Virus record (IMG/VR): IMGVR_UViG_3300034073_000061
Location: 1 to 20,029 of that record
Strand: one strand, 5' to 3'
DNA: 20,029 bases
DNA from: a virus
The notes under the pieces are model-generated. The model was not told where the DNA came from, made no database searches, and saw only the letters and a list, made by a program, of their open reading frames with translations. The position numbers and the translations under genes are program-made. Positions 3,266 to 19,306 of this stretch are shown here, piece by piece (positions within the stretch are counted from its first letter, which is position 1; each line of letters begins with the position of its first letter).

Positions 3266-6124
3266 TCAATAACCTTTTGCAAGGTAGTCAAATGTTTTAC
3301 TTACACCAGCTCCACTACTGTTTTTAAAAGCTACATCAAAACCATTTATAGTTTTGTTTGTCAGTAAATAAAAATCTCCAGTAGCTAATCCTTGTGCAGT
3401 AATACCAACAGCATAGTTAGCAGAATAAAATGGATTTGTAAATAAGACTGTATAGGTACTTGTGCCTGAAACAATATCATTTCCACTAAATATTCTATCT
3501 GGCATATCAACAGAAACTGATAAAGCACTAATAACTGGAGTAGATGCTAAATCAAATGAACGAAGTGAAACTCTAAATTTATAATATCTAGCTGTATAAT
3601 CGCCAACAACAAAGTTTCTAAATGAAGTATAAGTTACATTGTCATTAGATAAAGCAATCTCAATATGTGCATTACAATTTGCAGGAGTATCTCCATCAAA
3701 GTTAGAAGCACCATCATCAAAATCTCCAGTTCTTGAATCAAACAAGTCATCTAAGTTATCTGAAGTTTGTGTAATAGAAGCAGTTACTCTTGAAGTATAA
3801 ACAGCACCAATATCTATTGGGTTTGCAAATATATAAGTTCCTTCTGAATATAAATCATAAGTTCCAACACCTGAATCAAATAAAGAAGTTGCAGAATCAA
3901 AGTTTCCAGTCGCAGAATCAAATAGTTCTGATGAGTCTAATCTTAATGTTCCATCAACAACAACTGTTTGATTTTTAGTTCCTGAAAATGTAGGTGATTC
4001 AGTTTGTGTAGCAATAGCATTAAAGTTTCCAACTGTTGAAATATTAGTAGCTATAACAGCTTCATTAGATGAGAAGTTACCATTTTTATCTACTGCTTTT
4101 ATTAAATAAGAACCTACTCTTGCTGGAACTGTAACTGAAGTAGCTGGTCTTGCAACTTTTTCAACTAAAGAAACTGAGTTAGCCCAAGATGCACCACTTG
4201 TTAATGTTGAATATCTAATTGCATAATAAGCTAAATCTAAATCAGGTATTTGTGTCCAAGATAAATGAGCATCACTTCCAATAATATTACAAGAAAAATC
4301 TTCAACATCTGCTGGTGGTGCAATTCCACCTACAATAGTTCTTGTTGCAGAAGTATAAGTTGATTGTACTCCTAATGTGTTAAACGCTTTTACTCGCACA
4401 TTGTAAGTTAATCCATCTACGACATTTAATATTCTATGAAATAAACCTTTTCCTTGACCAGCTATAATATAATCTGTCGCTGTACTTAATTTATATTCTA
4501 CTTGGTAATAATCTACGAATGAATCTGGTGATGCACCAATAGTCACATCTAAAGCAGTTATAACAACTCCATCTGAGTATTCAATTAATTGGTCATCAAG
4601 AGTTACTGAAGCTGGTGCAGAAACATTATTAGGATTAGGAAGTGTAGTATCAGCAATAGTTGGTGCTTCTGCTTTTTCTGTCCAAGTGTAAAAGTTATCT
4701 TGATGCTCTATAAGTTTTAAAGAAACTGTTGAATCTGTATTTATACTTAATCCATAAACCCTAAATGGTTTAGCACTAAATCCACCAGTAGAATAAGTTA
4801 AATCAACAATATCACCTATTGTTAAATTTAATGCTTCTGAAGTCACCATAACTTCAACAGCTAAAGCGTTTCTTGATCTTCTTAATATAATTTCACAAAG
4901 TTCTTCAGCTTGGTATGGATTAGTAATTCCCTGAAATGTAAAATTACCTTCTAATTGTGTTCCATTATCTTCAGCTAATAAAGTTGCATATTGATCTCCT
5001 ACTGGCAAACCTGAATCATCTGCTGGTGGAAATGAAACTGTATCTTCTTGCCACTCTTTGTCAGGATTAACGAATGTACCTATAACACGATTGTATTTAG
5101 TATTTTTCTTTTCACCAAAAATTTTAATACCACCTATAATATTATCAGCATTTAAACTTAATTGAGATGAGCCAGTATTTTCAATAATTAAAAAATATTT
5201 ACCTTGCGTATAAGTAAATATTGCTCTCATTGGATTTAATAATTCTCTTACATTATCTATAACTTTTTGTTCTGTATCTATAACTAGGTTTGTTTCAAAT
5301 AAATCAATGTCTGATGGTGCTGAAGTATAAGGAGTGACTTGTGTATCGCAAATGTTTGCACTTGTTTTAAAAGAATCATAATTAGTTTCAAAAGCTGTAT
5401 TCGGCAAACCTTTTCCATATCTAGCGTTTCTTAAATAATCCAAAAGACATAAAGCAGAATTAGCAGAATATGTCCAAGTAGAAGCTGTATCTTGTCTATG
5501 AGAACCTGATCCACCTTTAGTAGAGTCTAGTCTTGGATCATAAATTTTTTTGCCTTTTAAAACTACTTTAACTTCTGGTAATGAACTAAATGCGTCTTGG
5601 TTCCAAGTAAATTTAAATGCAAGATAAGCAACACCAGATAATTTGTGATTGCTTCCCCAATTTGTGCTTTCATCTAATAATGATGAAACTGGTTGATTAT
5701 CTAATCCATAAAACGCCTGAACTGATATTAAACTTCCATCTTTATAAAAATTAGTATCTGAACTATTAACTGTTCGTACTGTTCCATCGGTTAATGCACC
5801 TGACCAAACTACAAGTTTATCATTAACATAAATTTCATCTACTGATTCAATACCATTGCCACCACCCTCACAAAGAACTCCTGCCATATAAAGATATTGA
5901 TTATCTGTTCCTGAAGATTCAACAAATACTCTGGCTATACCTACTTGCCTTCTTCCATAAACTACTGGAATGGCAGTATTGTTTGATGCTTTATTTACTA
6001 AAATACCTTGTGCTGTTTCTTGACCTTGCACATTTCTTTTTGGTGGGTCTGGTTTTAAAACCCAAGAGATTGCTGTTGTGACTACAAGTTGAACTACAAA
6101 CGCTGTTACTGGATCAAAGCCCAT
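3266..6124 (-). CDS. Tail tip / host specificity protein (lambda J-like)
   Basis: At 952 aa this is the largest gene. The N-terminus has a hydrophobic segment (about residues 8-23), then a hub-type beta domain with AIPVVYGRRQVGIARVF near residue 50. A central tail-protein domain covers roughly residues 220-480. Fibronectin-III-like segments follow (for example DVEDFSCNIIG, SWTQIPDLDLAYYAIRYS). A stretch of seven-residue FDS repeats sits at 734-811, and the C-terminal beta domain ends in DYLAKGY. This order matches lambda J-type central tip proteins that form the tail hub and carry distal receptor contacts. Its start overlaps the HlyC-like gene by 11 nt, placing it in the same transcript as the L- and K-position genes. 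Confidence 0.85.
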   Translation of the reverse strand: MGFDPVTAFVVQLVVTTAISWVLKPDPPKRNVQGQETAQGILVNKASNNTAIPVVYGRRQVGIARVFVESSGTDNQYLYMAGVLCEGGGNGIESVDEIYVNDKLVVWSGALTDGTVRTVNSSDTNFYKDGSLISVQAFYGLDNQPVSSLLDESTNWGSNHKLSGVAYLAFKFTWNQDAFSSLPEVKVVLKGKKIYDPRLDSTKGGSGSHRQDTASTWTYSANSALCLLDYLRNARYGKGLPNTAFETNYDSFKTSANICDTQVTPYTSAPSDIDLFETNLVIDTEQKVIDNVRELLNPMRAIFTYTQGKYFLIIENTGSSQLSLNADNIIGGIKIFGEKKNTKYNRVIGTFVNPDKEWQEDTVSFPPADDSGLPVGDQYATLLAEDNGTQLEGNFTFQGITNPYQAEELCEIILRRSRNALAVEVMVTSEALNLTIGDIVDLTYSTGGFSAKPFRVYGLSINTDSTVSLKLIEHQDNFYTWTEKAEAPTIADTTLPNPNNVSAPASVTLDDQLIEYSDGVVITALDVTIGASPDSFVDYYQVEYKLSTATDYIIAGQGKGLFHRILNVVDGLTYNVRVKAFNTLGVQSTYTSATRTIVGGIAPPADVEDFSCNIIGSDAHLSWTQIPDLDLAYYAIRYSTLTSGASWANSVSLVEKVARPATSVTVPARVGSYLIKAVDKNGNFSSNEAVIATNISTVGNFNAIATQTESPTFSGTKNQTVVVDGTLRLDSSELFDSATGNFDSATSLFDSGVGTYDLYSEGTYIFANPIDIGAVYTSRVTASITQTSDNLDDLFDSRTGDFDDGASNFDGDTPANCNAHIEIALSNDNVTYTSFRNFVVGDYTARYYKFRVSLRSFDLASTPVISALSVSVDMPDRIFSGNDIVSGTSTYTVLFTNPFYSANYAVGITAQGLATGDFYLLTNKTINGFDVAFKNSSGAGVSKTFDYLAKGY
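3692..3925 (-). repeat. Seven-residue FDS repeats inside the tail tip protein
   Basis: Two blocks of heptapeptide repeats are encoded. Residues 734-757 read LFDSATG-NFDSATS-LFDSGVG-TYD, and residues 794-811 read LFDSRTG-DFDDGAS-NFDG. Each unit has a hydrophobic/Asn position, Phe, Asp and a small or acidic residue, with regular spacing of 21 nt. Regular Asp/Ser/Gly turns of this kind could bind divalent cations or form a compact beta stack. The two blocks flank about 36 residues of non-repeated beta-type sequence. Confidence 0.8.
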
Positions 6125-6545
6125 TATGAAACTCCCTCTTAAATTTCATAGATCGTCTATAAATTATTGAGTCATCAGAAATTCTTAACCACTTTAAAGG
6201 TTGATTAACTTCTAATAGATTTCTAAAATATTCTTTAGTCCATTTCATTATTTCCCTTAAATTACTTTTTGCTACTGTTTCAATATGCCAAATATTATTT
6301 CCTGACTTCCATTCATTAGCTTTTAATTTACCAGTAGTCATAAATCTTTTTTCAACTTCATCAGATAAAAATGCCCAATTAGTAAATCCTACAACATCTC
6401 CATTAACTTTATGAATTTGATATTGGTCTAAATTAAATGATGGCATAATTGCATTTATCAAATCTTGGTATTTCATTTTGTCGTATCTAGGGAATTGCCT
6501 ATAAAGATGTATAATTTTATATAAATCAGTTACGCTTTGCCCCAT
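6114..6545 (-). CDS. HlyC-like (toxin-activating lysine acyltransferase-type) protein in tail-tip module
   Basis: The 143-aa protein resembles the RTX toxin-activating acyltransferase family. QYQIHKVNGDVVGFTNWAF (residues 41-59) plus LSDE aligns without gaps to the QYALL...PVAYCSWANLSLE region of HlyC. WKSGNNIWHIETVA (79-92) matches the WTSGDRKWFIDWIAP block. In this alignment HlyC's catalytic His23 falls on Tyr21 and its Asp92 on Glu89, so ordinary acyltransferase activity is doubtful. The gene overlaps its upstream neighbour by 16 nt and the tail tip gene by 11 nt. In lambda this slot, between L and J, holds gpK, a cell-wall peptidase. No RTX toxin gene is visible. It may be a structural or repurposed GNAT-fold protein. 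Family resemblance is good; function is open. Confidence 0.7.
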   Translation of the reverse strand: MGQSVTDLYKIIHLYRQFPRYDKMKYQDLINAIMPSFNLDQYQIHKVNGDVVGFTNWAFLSDEVEKRFMTTGKLKANEWKSGNNIWHIETVAKSNLREIMKWTKEYFRNLLEVNQPLKWLRISDDSIIYRRSMKFKREFHNGL

Positions 6546-7686: not shown

Positions 7687-9737
7687 TATACTAAACTAGG
7701 TTTTCCTTTACTATTAAGTGCTTGGTTCATAATATTAACAATAGTTGCTCTATTATCTAATAATAATTCTTTAACACCTTTAACATCAGTTGCAACAATC
7801 GTAAAGTTGAAGCTATTCGCTTTAGACTGCAAGTCTTGGTTCGGAACAATAGTACCATCGGAATTTGGTATAAACAGCTCTCTACCACGCTCTCCTACAG
7901 TATAAGGCGTACCTGCATTAACAGCACCACCCTCTGCCATAAAGAATGAACCAAAATCAAAGGAACTAAATATAGAACCCAAATCAAATCCACCACCCCC
8001 ACCACCACCAAATATATTGCCCATACTTCCAACAATATCACCTAGTGAACCACCTATTGAACTGAATATATCTCCAACACTAGAACTTAATGATGATAAA
8101 ATATCACCTATACTGCTTCCTATATTATTAAATATGTCATTAGTATAAGAACCTATGTTAGTAAATATATCTGATACTGATGTTAAAATAGTATCAAATG
8201 AGGTTTTTAATTTAGTCCATAATTCATCAATTATATTTGATAATTGTTTTCTAGCCATTTCTTCTGGACTGGCTACTGTACCTTTTCCTTCTAACTTTGA
8301 TTGTTTTTCTAATTCTGCTGTTCTTGCCTTATCAATAGCTAATCTTTTTAATCCTAATAAAACTGCTATTTCATCTAAAGCTAATAAAGCAATTTTAGCT
8401 AATTGTTCTTCTATTAAACCTGCAATAATTTTTACTAATAAATTTCTAGCTATATCTGCAAATGATGCTTGTAAAGATTTACCAAGAACTATTGATTCAG
8501 CGATTGCTTTTGAAACATCTTTTATTCCACTAACCATTCCTTGTGCAATTACAGAATAAATTTCTTTAAATTGAGCTTTTAAATCAAAAGCGGCAACTTG
8601 TAATGCTTGAACTGTTTTTTGTGTAGCAGATAATTCTACTGGTGTTCTTGTTTCTTGCTCTAATACTGCTGTAGTTTTTGGTGGTATAACTTCAAGCTGT
8701 ATTGGTTTTCCAAAAATGAACTCTTTTAATTCTTTATATTTTTTTCTAACATCATCTAAAAATCCTGCCATTTTTTCAAACGCTTTATTTAAATATTTAT
8801 TAATATTATCTGCGACTGCTTTAATGGGAATAAATAAATCAGATATAATTTCTGAAAATAAACGAATTAATGGATTAATAGTTTCTAATGCTAAAATAAA
8901 ACCTTGTAATATATTTCTAACAAATAAAGTTATAATATCTATAATCGGTTGTAATGCTTTTAATAATTCTGTTAATTGATCTACAAAACCAGTTAATTCT
9001 TTTTGGTCACCAATTTGAAATAAACCTGCTTGGAAAGTTTCAAATAATCTTTTAAAAGATACATTTAGATCATCAACTGGTTTAACAGAATTGTTTGCTC
9101 TTTTTTCTAATCCTATTAATAAGTTATCTAATATTAATTGTGAACCTTCGGCAGTATTAGATAATCTTACTAATGCTTTTTCATCTAATCCTAATTCTTC
9201 TCGTAATATTTGAAATGCTGGAATACCATTGGCAACTAATTGATTTAATGATTGTATATTAAAACCACCTTGTGCGCCTCTAGCAAATAATCTAGTTAAA
9301 TCATTTAAAGCATCTACTTTGTTAGTTGCATTACCAGCAGTTTGTGTGAATATTTTTAAAAGTCTATCAGTGGGTGCTACGCCATTTTGGCTTAATGTTA
9401 AAAATGTTCTACCTAATTCTTGAATACTAAATTGTGTTTTACTTGCAAACTGTGCTAAGGCATTAAAAGTTTCAGTTCCTTTTTCTACAGAACCAACAGC
9501 ATTTATAATGTTTCCTCTTAGTTCTTGAAATGTTTTTGTGACATCTATGATTTGTTTGCCTAATGATACTAGACCAACAGTAGCAAATCCTAATACTGCA
9601 TTTTTAAGTGTGAAAAAACTTTGTTGTGTATTATCGGTTTCTTTACTTACGCCTTTTAAACTATTCTTAACATCATTAAGTGCTTTTGTGGCATTATCTA
9701 TTGCGGAGATTGTTATTTTTACTTGCTGATCTGCCAT
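7686..9737 (-). CDS. Tape measure protein
   Basis: The 683-aa protein starts MADQQVKITISAIDNATKAL, typical of tape measure N-termini, followed by a helical tape-measure core (residues about 50-250, including QFSIQELGRTFLTLSQNGVA). Hydrophobic segments occur near 260-310. A long amphipathic helical region follows, then five 11-residue repeats at 521-575 and a seven-glycine run. The C-terminal tag AEGGAVNAGTPYTVGERGRE is the conserved end of lambda H-like tape measures. At about 1.5 angstrom per residue (general rule) it would set a tail of roughly 100 nm. There is no ribosome binding site at its ATG; the frameshifted chaperone product reads through this start, so its translation is probably coupled. 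Confidence 0.92.
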   Translation of the reverse strand: MADQQVKITISAIDNATKALNDVKNSLKGVSKETDNTQQSFFTLKNAVLGFATVGLVSLGKQIIDVTKTFQELRGNIINAVGSVEKGTETFNALAQFASKTQFSIQELGRTFLTLSQNGVAPTDRLLKIFTQTAGNATNKVDALNDLTRLFARGAQGGFNIQSLNQLVANGIPAFQILREELGLDEKALVRLSNTAEGSQLILDNLLIGLEKRANNSVKPVDDLNVSFKRLFETFQAGLFQIGDQKELTGFVDQLTELLKALQPIIDIITLFVRNILQGFILALETINPLIRLFSEIISDLFIPIKAVADNINKYLNKAFEKMAGFLDDVRKKYKELKEFIFGKPIQLEVIPPKTTAVLEQETRTPVELSATQKTVQALQVAAFDLKAQFKEIYSVIAQGMVSGIKDVSKAIAESIVLGKSLQASFADIARNLLVKIIAGLIEEQLAKIALLALDEIAVLLGLKRLAIDKARTAELEKQSKLEGKGTVASPEEMARKQLSNIIDELWTKLKTSFDTILTSVSDIFTNIGSYTNDIFNNIGSSIGDILSSLSSSVGDIFSSIGGSLGDIVGSMGNIFGGGGGGGFDLGSIFSSFDFGSFFMAEGGAVNAGTPYTVGERGRELFIPNSDGTIVPNQDLQSKANSFNFTIVATDVKGVKELLLDNRATIVNIMNQALNSKGKPSLV
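8013..8177 (-). repeat. Five tandem 11-residue repeats in the tape measure protein
   Basis: Residues 521-575 divide evenly into VSDIFTNIGSY, TNDIFNNIGSS, IGDILSSLSSS, VGDIFSSIGGS and LGDIVGSMGNI. Asp at position 3 and Ile at position 4 are invariant, position 5 is hydrophobic (Phe, Leu or Val), and positions 8-11 are mostly small residues. The DNA unit is 33 nt, five units in 165 nt. The run is followed by a Phe and seven glycines. Eleven-residue periodicity suits an extended right-handed helical bundle within the tail lumen. Confidence 0.9.
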
Positions 9738-10217
9738 AGTTTAGTTTATCTTTTTCTGCCTTCACTTTAAAATACGCTATCCAATAATAAAATTCTTCCT
9801 CAGTTAGAGAAAGCATTTCTTCCATACTTTTTTTTAATTCGTGACCAAGAGCAAGTATGGTGTAAAGCTCTTTGTCAAATCTTACTTTTTTTCGGTATCT
9901 TCGTAAGAAGCACTATTCAACATTTCTGTTGCGACTCTAGCTATAACATTTGCGTCAGCATTATTCAATAATGTTAGCTTGTCATCTAGCTTAAATATTT
10001 TATTTCCTTCAGAGTCTTTTGCTTTTAAAACGATTGCATCTACTAATACTCCTAGATCATCATTCTTAGCACCTTTAAATAGGTTCCTTTTTTCACCAAG
10101 TGTAAATGGTGAACAATAAATTACTAAAGGTTTGCCTTCCTCGCCCCATTCAGCTACCTCAATCTTTTTAATTCCTAAAGATTCAAACTGTGCCTTCACT
10201 CTATCTATTACTGCCAT
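9694..10217 (-). CDS. Frameshifted tail assembly chaperone (G-T fusion), -1 at AAAAAAG
   Basis: The 0-frame chaperone gene ends in GAA AAA AAG TAA. Slipping back one base at A AAA AAG (9885-9891) opens a second frame through to a TAA at 9694-9696, adding 63 codons and giving a 174-aa product. The extension begins VRFDKELYTILALGHELKKS, contains SLTEEEFYYWIAYFKVKAEK, and runs 44 nt into the tape measure gene. The LTEEEFYYWIAYF pattern is typical of T-domains in siphovirus chaperones, which bind the tape measure while the shorter G form coats tail tube subunits. The extension has no start of its own and fills the otherwise empty 144 nt between the two genes. The call rests on sequence and family knowledge; frameshift rate is not known. 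Confidence 0.88.
9847..9891 (-). promoter_or_regulatory. Programmed -1 frameshift signal: slippery heptamer plus stem-loop
   Basis: The heptamer A AAA AAG lies at 9885-9891, in the correct phase directly before the TAA stop. Twelve bases downstream a 6-bp perfect stem can form, AAGAGC (9867-9872) with GCTCTT (9847-9852), around a 14-base loop. A spacer of 12 is slightly long for a bacterial stimulator and the stem is short, so the heptamer is the stronger part of the evidence. Confidence 0.8.
9882..10217 (-). CDS. Tail assembly chaperone, short form (G-like)
   Basis: The 111-aa product starts MAVIDRVKAQFESLGIKKIE, includes EEGKPLVIYCSPFTLGEKRN, and ends EDTEKK. It is the unshifted form of the tail chaperone pair and lies between the tail tube and tape measure genes, the fixed place for this family. 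Size and acidic, helical C-terminal half (DANVIARVATEMLNSASYED) agree with G-type chaperones that keep tail tube subunits competent for assembly. A GGAAG ribosome binding site precedes the ATG. Most ribosomes should stop at the TAA at 9882-9884. Confidence 0.85.
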   Translation of the reverse strand: MAVIDRVKAQFESLGIKKIEVAEWGEEGKPLVIYCSPFTLGEKRNLFKGAKNDDLGVLVDAIVLKAKDSEGNKIFKLDDKLTLLNNADANVIARVATEMLNSASYEDTEKK

Positions 10218-13876: not shown

Positions 13877-14824
13877 TTAAAGAGTAGAATTGCCTTCTTC
13901 GTCTACCCAGCTAGGATCTACTGGTTGCCAACTATGCCTACAATTATATCCACCTCTTACAATGAATGGACTTCCTTGATCTCTACCCTGTCCAGTATCA
14001 TTGTTCCAAATATCTATAATTTGTTGTTCTGTATAAACTTTACCTGCGTGTTTTCTGCAAAAATCTCTAGAATCTTTTATGAGAGAACCATAATATAAAT
14101 AGCTACTTAAACCTAATTCGTTTGCTCTATATTTGGCGAATTGTCCATCAAAACCCATAATGCTATCAGTTACTAATAAACTTGCATATTTAGCAAAGCT
14201 GTCACCAGTAGTAGTTCGCCCATAGACTTGCTTTAGTTCGTCTATAGCAGTCGTTACTTCTGCTCCATCAGGGTTATTCGCTATATACTCAACTAACTGT
14301 TGGGCTTTAGCGTTATCAGAATATTGATATATTCCATTTATTTTTTCTCTAATGGTATTAACCATTTCATTAAATGATCTTCCTACTAATGTTGATTGAT
14401 AAACTTCACCAGCTAAAGTGTTGGTTAATTCATTTCCTAAATTTTGAAAATTAGTAAATGCTATTTTCTTTAATTGTTGAATAGTTACTAAATCAGCTTC
14501 GGTTATATTTTTAAATTCTGGTGGAATAGGAAGTTTTCCATAAGTTGCTACTATTGTTGCGGCAATCTTATCATAATCTTTTATTAGAGTATTAACTGGT
14601 GTTAAATAAAATTCTTCAATAGCTTGTTGTAATCTAGGTCTAATTTCTATTGCAAGTCTAGTAGAATATAATTCACCAGTTTTAGTAGGAAGTTCAGAAG
14701 CAATATTAACAACCTCTTGTTCTAGTCTTTGTAATGTTTTGAATAATAGTTCTTTGTGTTGTGATTCTAAATTATCTATTGTGCGTTCTCTTATCGCTTG
14801 TAGTTGTTGTAGAATATCTGCCAT
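13877..14824 (-). CDS. Minor head protein, MuF-like
   Basis: The 315-aa protein has a long helical N-terminal region (MADILQQLQAIRERTIDNLE onward) and ends in a MuF-type C-terminal domain. DSRDFCRKHAGKVYTEQQI occurs at about residues 250-270 and GGYNCRHSWQPVDP near 293-306. The paired Cys/His positions are characteristic of this head morphogenesis domain. MuF-like proteins attach near the portal inside the head and help packaging or ejection. No clear ribosome binding site precedes the ATG, and an AATGTTC repeat sits only 8 nt upstream. The gene is separated from the portal gene by a plus-strand gene, an unusual arrangement. Confidence 0.85.
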   Translation of the reverse strand: MADILQQLQAIRERTIDNLESQHKELLFKTLQRLEQEVVNIASELPTKTGELYSTRLAIEIRPRLQQAIEEFYLTPVNTLIKDYDKIAATIVATYGKLPIPPEFKNITEADLVTIQQLKKIAFTNFQNLGNELTNTLAGEVYQSTLVGRSFNEMVNTIREKINGIYQYSDNAKAQQLVEYIANNPDGAEVTTAIDELKQVYGRTTTGDSFAKYASLLVTDSIMGFDGQFAKYRANELGLSSYLYYGSLIKDSRDFCRKHAGKVYTEQQIIDIWNNDTGQGRDQGSPFIVRGGYNCRHSWQPVDPSWVDEEGNSTL

Positions 14825-14832
14825 GTTTATAC

Positions 14833-14861
14833 AATGTTCACTAAATGTTCCATTAATGTTC
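14833..14861. repeat. Three AATGTTC direct repeats at exact 11-bp spacing
   Basis: Identical AATGTTC copies start at 14833, 14844 and 14855 on the plus strand, so all lie on one face of the helix. The last two are also enclosed by an inverted pair, CACTAA (14839-14844) and TTAGTG (14862-14867). TTCACTAA recurs at 14885-14892. The array lies between the divergent MuF gene and the plus-strand gene, where a regulator could control both. No protein that binds it is known from the window. Confidence 0.75.
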
Positions 14862-14883
14862 TTAGTGTAGAATCTAAAAGTTA

Positions 14884-14912
14884 TTTCACTAATAGCTTTT
14901 AAGAAATAATAT
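14884..14912 (+). promoter_or_regulatory. Possible promoter for the plus-strand 63-aa gene
   Basis: TTTCAC (14884-14889), 17 bases, then TAATAT (14907-14912) make a weak sigma70-like pair on the plus strand. The transcript would start shortly before the AAAGGA ribosome binding site at 14936-14941, 7 nt from the ATG. The gene has no upstream plus-strand neighbour, so some promoter is required here. AT-rich sequence makes this exact assignment uncertain. Confidence 0.4.
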
Positions 14913-14948
14913 ATATTCTAAATATTAACTAAAAAAAAGGATAATAAA

Positions 14949-15140
14949 ATGATAAATACAGAAAAACAAATACAATGGGAATTATATCAATTACTTTTAC
15001 ATATTGAATACAATCCTGAATATACTGTAAAAGAAATTAAAAAAGATATTGCTGATATTTTAGCTGATGTAAATGGTATTAAAAGATACCAAGTTTTAGA
15101 TACTGTTAAAGAGGAAGTTAGTAATTTTAATCAAGAATAA
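14949..15140 (+). CDS. 63-aa unknown protein, only plus-strand gene in the head operon
   Basis: The protein starts MINTEKQIQWELYQLLLHIE and contains EYTVKEIKKDIADILADVNG. It is small, helical and acidic, without signal peptide or cysteines. It has a good ribosome binding site (AAAGGA) and codon use like its neighbours. It runs against all other genes: convergent with the portal gene (5 nt apart) and divergent from the MuF gene. Such an isolated reversed gene is typical of an inserted accessory gene expressed at another time, for example an early or host-directed function. It could equally be a small regulator. I do not recognise the family. Confidence 0.7.
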   Translation: MINTEKQIQWELYQLLLHIEYNPEYTVKEIKKDIADILADVNGIKRYQVLDTVKEEVSNFNQE

Positions 15141-15145
15141 AATTA

Positions 15146-16543
15146 TTAAACTGTCGGTAATGTTATTGGTTGTTGTGGAAATTCTCCTAGAGCTTGTGTG
15201 TTAGTTTCAATTTCAGCATCTATTATTACTAACTTTTCATCATCATCAATTACAGTTCTAGCAATTTGTTTATCTAGTTCTTTTGTGAAAGTAGATGATT
15301 TAATATTACTTGCTTTAGCTTGTTGTAATAATTCTAAATCTGTTGCCCAATCTCTAATATCAAAAGTTTCTGGATATTTAACTTCACCATCAAATATTGT
15401 TTCTTGCCATAAAGCATATAATCTCCAAATTTGTTCTTCAGCTAATTCCATTAATTTTGATTTTTGAGATAGTCTAGCATTTAATAATTCAAATTCAGTT
15501 CTCAATGCAATACCAGAAGCAACTCTTTCGCTTGTTGCTCTAATAGAACCTACGTGGCTTAATCTATTTATTGCATCAACTTTATTTGATATTGATTTTA
15601 ATACACCATCTAAATTACTTCCACTTGGTTGTAAGATATAAGGTTTTAAGTTAGCATCAATGTTATCAGGAATTTCAATTATAGAACCTGCACCAGCACC
15701 AGCATCAGTATCTCTTGTTTTAACTAATGATGGGTGATTTGATAATCTAATAATCTGTTCTATTTCAGATAGTTCGTTATAAATTGCTTTTTGTAAATCA
15801 GCGACATCTGTTAAATCAGAAATACCAACTGCTCTCATTGGTGATCTTTGATTGTATAAAATAACTGCTGGTATTTTGCCTATTGGGTTTTCTAATGTTT
15901 GAGTTAATTTAGGTTCTTCTCTACTGTTTGTTGATAAGAAAACACAATCAACTCTGTCCTCATACCAAATTTTATAATACTCACCATTTTGATCTATTGA
16001 TTCTCTGATTTTTAAATATTCTAAATAATAATAACCAGATTCATTTCTTCTGTAATTCCAATCAATAACATTTTCAGGAGTATAAATATTTAGATATGGT
16101 CTTATTCCTTGATTTAATTCTTCTGCTCTTGTCATTACATTTGTTGATGGTTTATCTAGTAATAACCAAGTATGTCCATAGATACTTGCATAAGTTTGTG
16201 CTTCACGCATTAAACTATTAAATGATCTTCCTTCTAAATCAGCATCTTGTAAAAAATATTGAACTGTTGCATCTTGTTCTAACGCACCTAATTCTCTAGT
16301 AGGTAATACTCTAAATAGAAATGATGAATAAATATCTATTACATTACGACAATGATTGTCTAATGGTGTGTAAGATAATCTTTTAAAATATTCTGATTCT
16401 AATTCTAATTGATATGCTTGTAAAAACTTACCATCTTGAAACTCTTTGCCACCTAAATAACTTCTTATAAAGTATTCCCATCTAGGCATCATACCTTTAT
16501 AAAATTGATGTTGCTGTTCTATGTCTTGTCTTGTGTATGCCAT
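15146..16543 (-). CDS. Portal protein (DUF4055-like)
   Basis: The 465-aa protein starts MAYTRQDIEQQHQFYKGMMP and contains YLGGKEFQDGKFLQAYQLEL and YTPLDNHCRNVIDIYSSFLF near the N-terminus, as in DUF4055-type portals. The central stem and clip region includes SDLTDVADLQKAIYNELSEI, and the long helix around ATSERVASGIALRTEFELLN is typical of portal wings. Portals form the dodecameric ring for DNA entry and bind the terminase. The ATG shares a base with the TerL stop (TAATG). Order TerL-portal-MuF supports it, despite the inserted opposite gene downstream. Confidence 0.88.
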   Translation of the reverse strand: MAYTRQDIEQQHQFYKGMMPRWEYFIRSYLGGKEFQDGKFLQAYQLELESEYFKRLSYTPLDNHCRNVIDIYSSFLFRVLPTRELGALEQDATVQYFLQDADLEGRSFNSLMREAQTYASIYGHTWLLLDKPSTNVMTRAEELNQGIRPYLNIYTPENVIDWNYRRNESGYYYLEYLKIRESIDQNGEYYKIWYEDRVDCVFLSTNSREEPKLTQTLENPIGKIPAVILYNQRSPMRAVGISDLTDVADLQKAIYNELSEIEQIIRLSNHPSLVKTRDTDAGAGAGSIIEIPDNIDANLKPYILQPSGSNLDGVLKSISNKVDAINRLSHVGSIRATSERVASGIALRTEFELLNARLSQKSKLMELAEEQIWRLYALWQETIFDGEVKYPETFDIRDWATDLELLQQAKASNIKSSTFTKELDKQIARTVIDDDEKLVIIDAEIETNTQALGEFPQQPITLPTV

Positions 16544-18982: not shown

Positions 18983-19306
18983 TTACTTTTTAAGTGATTT
19001 GTAAAGAAACTCTAATAGATTCTGATTTTGATATAGTATATGGCAAATTCCATTAGCTAGTGAATTACAAGTTATTTCCTCAGCTTTAGCTGATAAATCT
19101 ATTTTGTATTCATCGTGAATTAAATGAAATATCTCGTGAAATAAAGTATTGCTCATTTCAATATTGTTTAATGATTTATCTATAGTCATTATGTTTTTGT
19201 CTGAGTCAAATTCACCAAATATTTTTTTCTTAGATGCTATTTCCTTGTCAATGTAGTCTAACTTAATTAGTCTGCTTCCAAAGACTATCTCGTTAGGTAA
19301 ACTCAT
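18983..19306 (-). CDS. Small HExxH zinc metallopeptidase (ImmA/IrrE-like)
   Basis: The 107-aa protein carries NTLFHEIFHLIHDEYKIDLS with the zinc ligands His57 and His61 and catalytic Glu58. An AEEITCNSLANGI helix (about 75-87) provides a candidate third ligand (Glu76 or Glu77). A preceding beta hairpin, GEFDSDKNIMTIDKSL, completes the minimal ImmA/IrrE (DUF955) fold. Such enzymes cleave regulators or other proteins; no helix-turn-helix partner domain is present here. It is coupled by ATGA overlap to the basic 57-aa gene upstream. The substrate is unknown; it could act on a host protein during infection. Confidence 0.78.
   Translation of the reverse strand: MSLPNEIVFGSRLIKLDYIDKEIASKKKIFGEFDSDKNIMTIDKSLNNIEMSNTLFHEIFHLIHDEYKIDLSAKAEEITCNSLANGICHILYQNQNLLEFLYKSLKK

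Follow-up and report, generated by a model that had tools for sequence, protein, structure and literature searches.

A recurrent antisense accessory-gene slot at the portal-MuF junction of pelagiphage-like viruses, with a candidate host-type LexA box

The junction between the portal and MuF-like genes of pelagiphage-like viruses is, as judged from the comparison of related phages, a recurrent moron hot spot, and the 63-aa plus-strand gene of our window (the whole stretch of 20,029 nt of DNA analysed here) is one such insert. This assignment follows from inserts lying at the same point, from the antisense direction of all readable cargo, from the 25 families of cargo, and from the common promoter-like leader and one-way terminator in most marine copies. 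We put at roughly 60% the probability that this moron cassette has its expression tied to the SOS state of the host via a LexA box, as the motif in its leader suggests. The recurrent hot spot and the host SOS (LexA) box motif within it go beyond the earlier idea of an inserted cassette.

The window and its plus-strand gene

The window represents a pelagiphage-like virus and carries on its minus strand a structural operon of terminase, portal, MuF-like protein, scaffold, capsid and tail genes. All recognisable genes of the window lie on this strand, and the 63-aa ORF is the sole plausible gene on the plus strand. The portal shows 55-57% identity to those of the Pelagibacter phages HTVC202P, HTVC026P, HTVC111P and HTVC112P, and this similarity to pelagiphages points to a SAR11-type host; no prophage copy of the window portal was found in the bacterial and archaeal genomes searched. 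The gene downstream of the insert matched PHROGs and no Pfam MuF model in the Pfam scan, so that the name MuF should become MuF-like. The features of the junction are as follows.

13877..14824, minus strand: MuF-like head morphogenesis gene, downstream of the insert (head maturation/morphogenesis PHROGs, E 1.9e-7)
14825..15145, no strand: whole insert, 321 bp, from the MuF-like start codon to the portal stop codon, missing at 121 of the 163 distinct related junctions
14825..14828, plus strand: GTTT, a degenerate fourth half-site in the 11-bp register, abutting the MuF-like start (one-mismatch match at 14825-14839)
14836..14861, plus strand: GTTCACTAAATGTTCCATTAATGTTC, three perfect GTTC half-sites with an 11-bp period, equal to two overlapping GTTC-N7-GTTC; candidate LexA/SOS box from shuffles and relatives
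14885..14912, plus strand: weak candidate cargo promoter TTCACT-N16-TAATAT, read by eye
14937..14941, plus strand: Shine-Dalgarno-like AAGGA, 7 nt 5' of the cargo ATG
14949..15140, plus strand: cargo gene, 63 aa, ATG start, predicted helices at 4-21, 27-42 and 46-62
15118..15149, plus strand: AT-only inverted repeat at the cargo 3' end, possible weak terminator
15146..16543, minus strand: portal gene, upstream of the insert (phrog_145, E 3e-59; SPP1_portal)

The first-pass annotation had placed a 63-aa plus-strand gene between portal and MuF, opposite to all others, and the ORF at 14949-15140 is indeed present and coding-like. An ATG ORF of at least 63 aa arose in only 0.5% of dinucleotide shuffles of the insert (P about 0.005), and the codon usage of the ORF, scored against the other genes of the window, is +0.31 per codon as compared to -0.41 for shuffles, with 0 of 2000 shuffles as high. 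Of its proposed expression signals, the ribosome binding site was recovered as the AAGGA element, whereas the possible promoter did not rise above chance in a consensus scan. A terminator scan found no GC-rich terminator in the window cassette. The product is predicted to form a three-helix bundle (AlphaFold2, single sequence, pLDDT 90.9), for which no significant fold match was found in PDB and viral fold libraries. No homologues were detected in IMG/VR, phage records, 197 SAR11-order genomes, PHROGs, Pfam or PADLOC, and the product is unrelated by BLASTP to HTVC202P gp29.

Some further observations were made elsewhere in this operon. The window encodes on its minus strand a putative 2OG-Fe(II) oxygenase near the tail/fibre end (560-1171, PF13759, E 2e-22) and, among the tail genes, an HlyC-like lysine acyltransferase (6114-6545, PF02794, E 2e-19) with annotated counterparts in the isolates HTVC111P, HTVC112P and HTVC026P. 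Beside the packaging genes lies a small zinc-peptidase-like protein (18983-19306, minus strand) with a HEIFH motif and a weak Peptidase_M78/IrrE match, which is conserved in relatives such as L011. In the lake phage relative DSL-LC06 (L083) the capsid gene is followed by an antisense gene for an HNH endonuclease (8604-9023), which suggests further antisense insertion points in this operon. HTVC111P gp45 (L085:18179-18331) and HTVC112P gp41 (L086:19123-19269) are annotated as antisense just before the tape measure gene; at the matching place the window has a small sense ORF (9694-9825), and the antisense annotation of both may be a misannotation.

Filled and empty junctions

The relatives were gathered by portal search and from isolate records, and after removal of identical junction sequences 163 distinct junctions were left. 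The portal-MuF gap is only 1-4 bp in 121 of these, which are empty, and the other 42 are filled at exactly the insertion point of the window with inserts of about 220-790 bp. A would-be 43rd insert (L369) proved to be false, as its portal match was only partial, and L312 was dropped because a contig end cuts it. The first-pass annotation had regarded the gene as an inserted accessory cassette and had proposed this comparison of junctions in related phages; it is borne out by the close relatives, whose sites are empty, and by the variety of antisense inserts that occupy this one point. In five relatives with 98% portal identity to the window (L001-L005) the portal stop is directly followed by the MuF start (TAATGTGGCACAAG), hence the insert is young in the lineage of the window. 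Among the isolates, HTVC202P (gp29) and HTVC111P (gp32) are filled and have annotated cargo, and HTVC026P and HTVC112P are empty. The MuF-like start codon is ATG in all 42 filled junctions and GTG in 81 of the 121 empty ones, which is what a loss of coupling to the portal would produce.

Wherever an insert has a readable ORF, this cargo runs antisense to the operon, and sense ORFs reach at most 59 aa. The cargo proteins, 55-215 aa long, fall into 25 unrelated families by BLASTP clustering, several of them with two to four members. Scans of the cargos, that of the window included, against Pfam, PHROG and PADLOC gave no function; none of the families scanned had a clear Pfam or PADLOC match, and two match PHROGs of unknown function.

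Read in the cargo direction, most marine inserts begin with the MuF start, TTTGTTCTAATTTTGTTC, a CTAG-rich dyad and TTGACC-N17-TAATAT or a close variant; after this promoter-like element come AAAGGAGAG, the cargo, and finally a GC-rich hairpin plus T-run that adjoins the portal stop. Type-1 leaders are those with this element and a ribosome binding site. A second leader type (L109, L116, L121, L122, L146, L154, L167) has other sequences with a TATAAT-like -10, and the second-type leader AACGCAAAAAGTGTTTTAGTGTCGCATCAATAGTGAAACACC, for which L155 is also listed, shows dyad symmetry and no GTTC box. The cargo-strand terminator beside the portal stop is found in 31 of the 42 copies and is absent from the window and the L029 type; a weaker terminator match on the late strand occurs in eight. 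The freshwater-like copies, namely the window and L029/L068/L074 (55-aa cargo), are shorter and have no GC terminator. The -10/5'UTR part of the HTVC111P leader resembles a stretch (34 nt, 88%) in front of gp11, a leftward early gene of that phage. As different genes are framed by common flanks, the cargo may be exchanged by homologous recombination within the flanks.

The GTTC-N7-GTTC box and the host LexA system

The GTTC half-sites of the window begin at 14836, 14847 and 14858. When the 124-nt window leader was shuffled by dinucleotides, at least one box appeared with P=0.0003, and none of 20000 shuffles contained two. Of the 33 inserts (window included) that were not fetched by the motif, 25 have an exact GTTC-N7-GTTC no more than 45 nt from the MuF start, a count whose members are not independent, as common ancestry links some of the leaders; the nine inserts obtained by searching for the motif were excluded from this frequency. 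As for the remaining eight, L029 has one mismatch and the seven type-2 leaders have no box. The half-sites persist in leaders whose spacers (TAATTTT, TAATTAT, TATATCT, CTATTTT, TTATTTT, ACTAAAT) and remaining sequence have diverged. The box of the main marine leader is found near -79, about 37 bp upstream of the best -35 element, and that of the L029-type leader abuts the candidate -35.

The same pattern was seen at two other places. At the scaffold gene start (GTTCATTGTTTGTTC) it was rejected as a coincidence of Shine-Dalgarno sequence and start codon. An exact GTTC-N7-GTTC, GTTCGTTAAATGTTC, recurs in a short gap upstream of a terminase small-subunit-like gene (L011:2477-2491 and many relatives). 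This one was set aside; it could be a second SOS-like box or a chance match fixed by common descent.

The alphaproteobacterial LexA consensus is GTTCN7GTTC, and the phage box is identical in form to the lexA/umuD box of the host. In the SAR11 genomes, which were reached through proteorhodopsin loci, LexA scored over the cut-off in 94 of 117 SAR11-order genomes. GAAC-N7-GAAC was located 38-48 bp upstream of the conserved LTKKQK/LTRKQK codon in all 35 SAR11 lexA loci examined, and a GTTC-N7-GTTC box abuts the start of the host umuD-like gene (GAACAAAACAAGAACATG). Phage L074 and the umuD-like start in genome G001 have the 18-mer GAACAAAATAAGAACATG in common. The pattern occurs about ten times per SAR11 genome with no enrichment over a reversed control, so the case for the box rests on position and conservation, and presence alone is no proof. 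Two features expected of a LexA regulon member were found, namely a box near the gene start in the window and LexA in SAR11-order genomes, the probable host group. Host recA, lexA, umuD and umuC reportedly rise on infection by pelagiphage HTVC027P (PMC12753301).

Interpretation and relation to known systems

In the reading that we favour, the insert would carry one accessory gene that sits antisense in the virion operon, at a junction which tolerates insertions, and is expressed apart from the operon, as the antisense orientation implies. The proposal in the first-pass annotation that the timing of the two must differ, or that one excludes the other, is plausible. Recombination probably keeps the flanks (leader by MuF, terminator by portal) and swaps the cargo. 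Host LexA would bind the box and hold the cassette down while LexA is intact; DNA damage, for instance from the infection itself, would then lead to RecA-driven LexA cleavage and release of the unit. The cargo may be a small host-interaction or anti-competitor factor. Several findings count against this reading. A box near -79, as the main marine leader has it, would be an unusual placement if LexA simply repressed the cargo, the seven second-type leaders are devoid of the box, the promoter and terminator of the window are themselves weak, and the GAAC repeat adjoins MuF too, where a role is possible. Since the box is about 37 bp from the marine -35 and touches the MuF start as in host umuD, it could possibly control MuF, both genes, or neither.

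Three other explanations were weighed. The cassette may be a moron under ordinary host sigma-70 transcription with no SOS control, the GTTC repeats being incidental or an inherited flank. The strong sigma-70-like promoter well away from the box in type-1 leaders speaks for it, as do the same architecture in type-2 leaders without the box and the resemblance of the HTVC111P leader to that of its early gene; yet exact half-sites with an 11-bp period have persisted in marine and freshwater leaders despite their divergence, and the window has three of them, and we consider this explanation unlikely, though deserving of some weight. Slightly less probable is that the box serves the MuF and late-operon direction, with LexA at 0-5 bp from the MuF start acting as a roadblock or as a repressor of an SOS promoter for the head genes. 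The box does abut the MuF ATG in the orientation and position seen in host umuD (GAACAAAAC/TAAGAACATG), but it occurs only where the cassette is present, no convincing promoter toward MuF was found, and there is no clear reason for capsid genes to await SOS.

An insert that is only an antisense RNA or a recombination scar, with the ORF untranslated, appears very improbable. The cargo transcript would be antisense to the late message and the 63-aa product has no known homologue, both as this explanation predicts, but the codon bias, ribosome binding site and confident fold of the ORF oppose it, as do the proteins encoded at this place in relatives and the cargo families that have more than one member.

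A temperate-phage explanation was also examined by searches for integrase, resolvase and S24, which had no matches. The 13 near-complete relatives, whose records may be incomplete, yielded no tyrosine integrase, serine recombinase/resolvase or S24 repressor; the isolates do have annotated small HTH proteins, and the window itself is a fragment. The cassette-bearing phages thus look lytic from their gene content, and a role in lysogenic conversion is not favoured.

The closest known systems are the morons found in lambdoid and P22-like phages, above all the 'ant moron' of the P22 late operon (PMC2629481). An extra gene in an operon when relatives are compared, by which a moron is recognised, is what the filled and empty junctions display. 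As in those phages, accessory genes that are, or here would be, independently expressed occupy a fixed place in a virion operon with varying content, and empty versions are known. Unlike them, the pelagiphage slot belongs to seemingly lytic phages, its gene is almost always a single one and invariably antisense, and it has very many unrelated cargo types and a host-SOS-box motif. On the sequence comparisons made here, the feature is a moron of unusual form, in that its slot is fixed, takes a single antisense gene and bears a host SOS-box motif. At the same junction, HTVC111P gp32 and HTVC202P gp29 are antisense hypothetical genes in phages with 55-57% portal identity; the cargo of the window differs from theirs, and their strong GC-rich terminator is absent in the window.

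LexA-controlled antirepressor genes of temperate phages (186 tum, N15 antC, Gifsy gfoA/gftA; PMC3121763) are likewise small phage proteins outside the immunity region with a host LexA box upstream, which is a candidate box in the present case. In contrast to those phages, the near-complete relatives of the window yielded no cleavable/S24-type repressor or integrase. The 63-aa product of the window showed no sequence relation to a known antirepressor, having no significant Pfam or PHROG match, and one common antirepressor role is unlikely because the cargo families are unrelated to each other. The phage box has the same GTTC-N7-GTTC as SAR11 lexA/umuD and abuts MuF in the cassettes as it abuts the umuD start codon in the host, whereas in the phage it sits between two divergent genes, downstream of no clear MuF promoter.

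To our knowledge, phage-host control in SAR11 is almost unstudied. It is possible, if somewhat doubtful, that lytic phages of SAR11, the most abundant bacteria of ocean and fresh water, keep in the capsid operon an SOS-gated, LexA-controlled antisense single-gene slot, whose cargo is freely swapped while the control flank and terminator are kept, and which deploys one of many host-takeover or anti-competitor proteins once infection sets off the DNA-damage response of the host. The proposed control can be tested in existing isolates, as HTVC111P and HTVC202P carry the cassette and HTVC112P and HTVC026P are without it. If the reading is true, one junction in a very abundant phage group would index small accessory genes, with 25 families from a modest survey, and accessory-gene expression would be coupled directly to the DNA damage of infection through a host SOS box in a phage that seems to be lytic.
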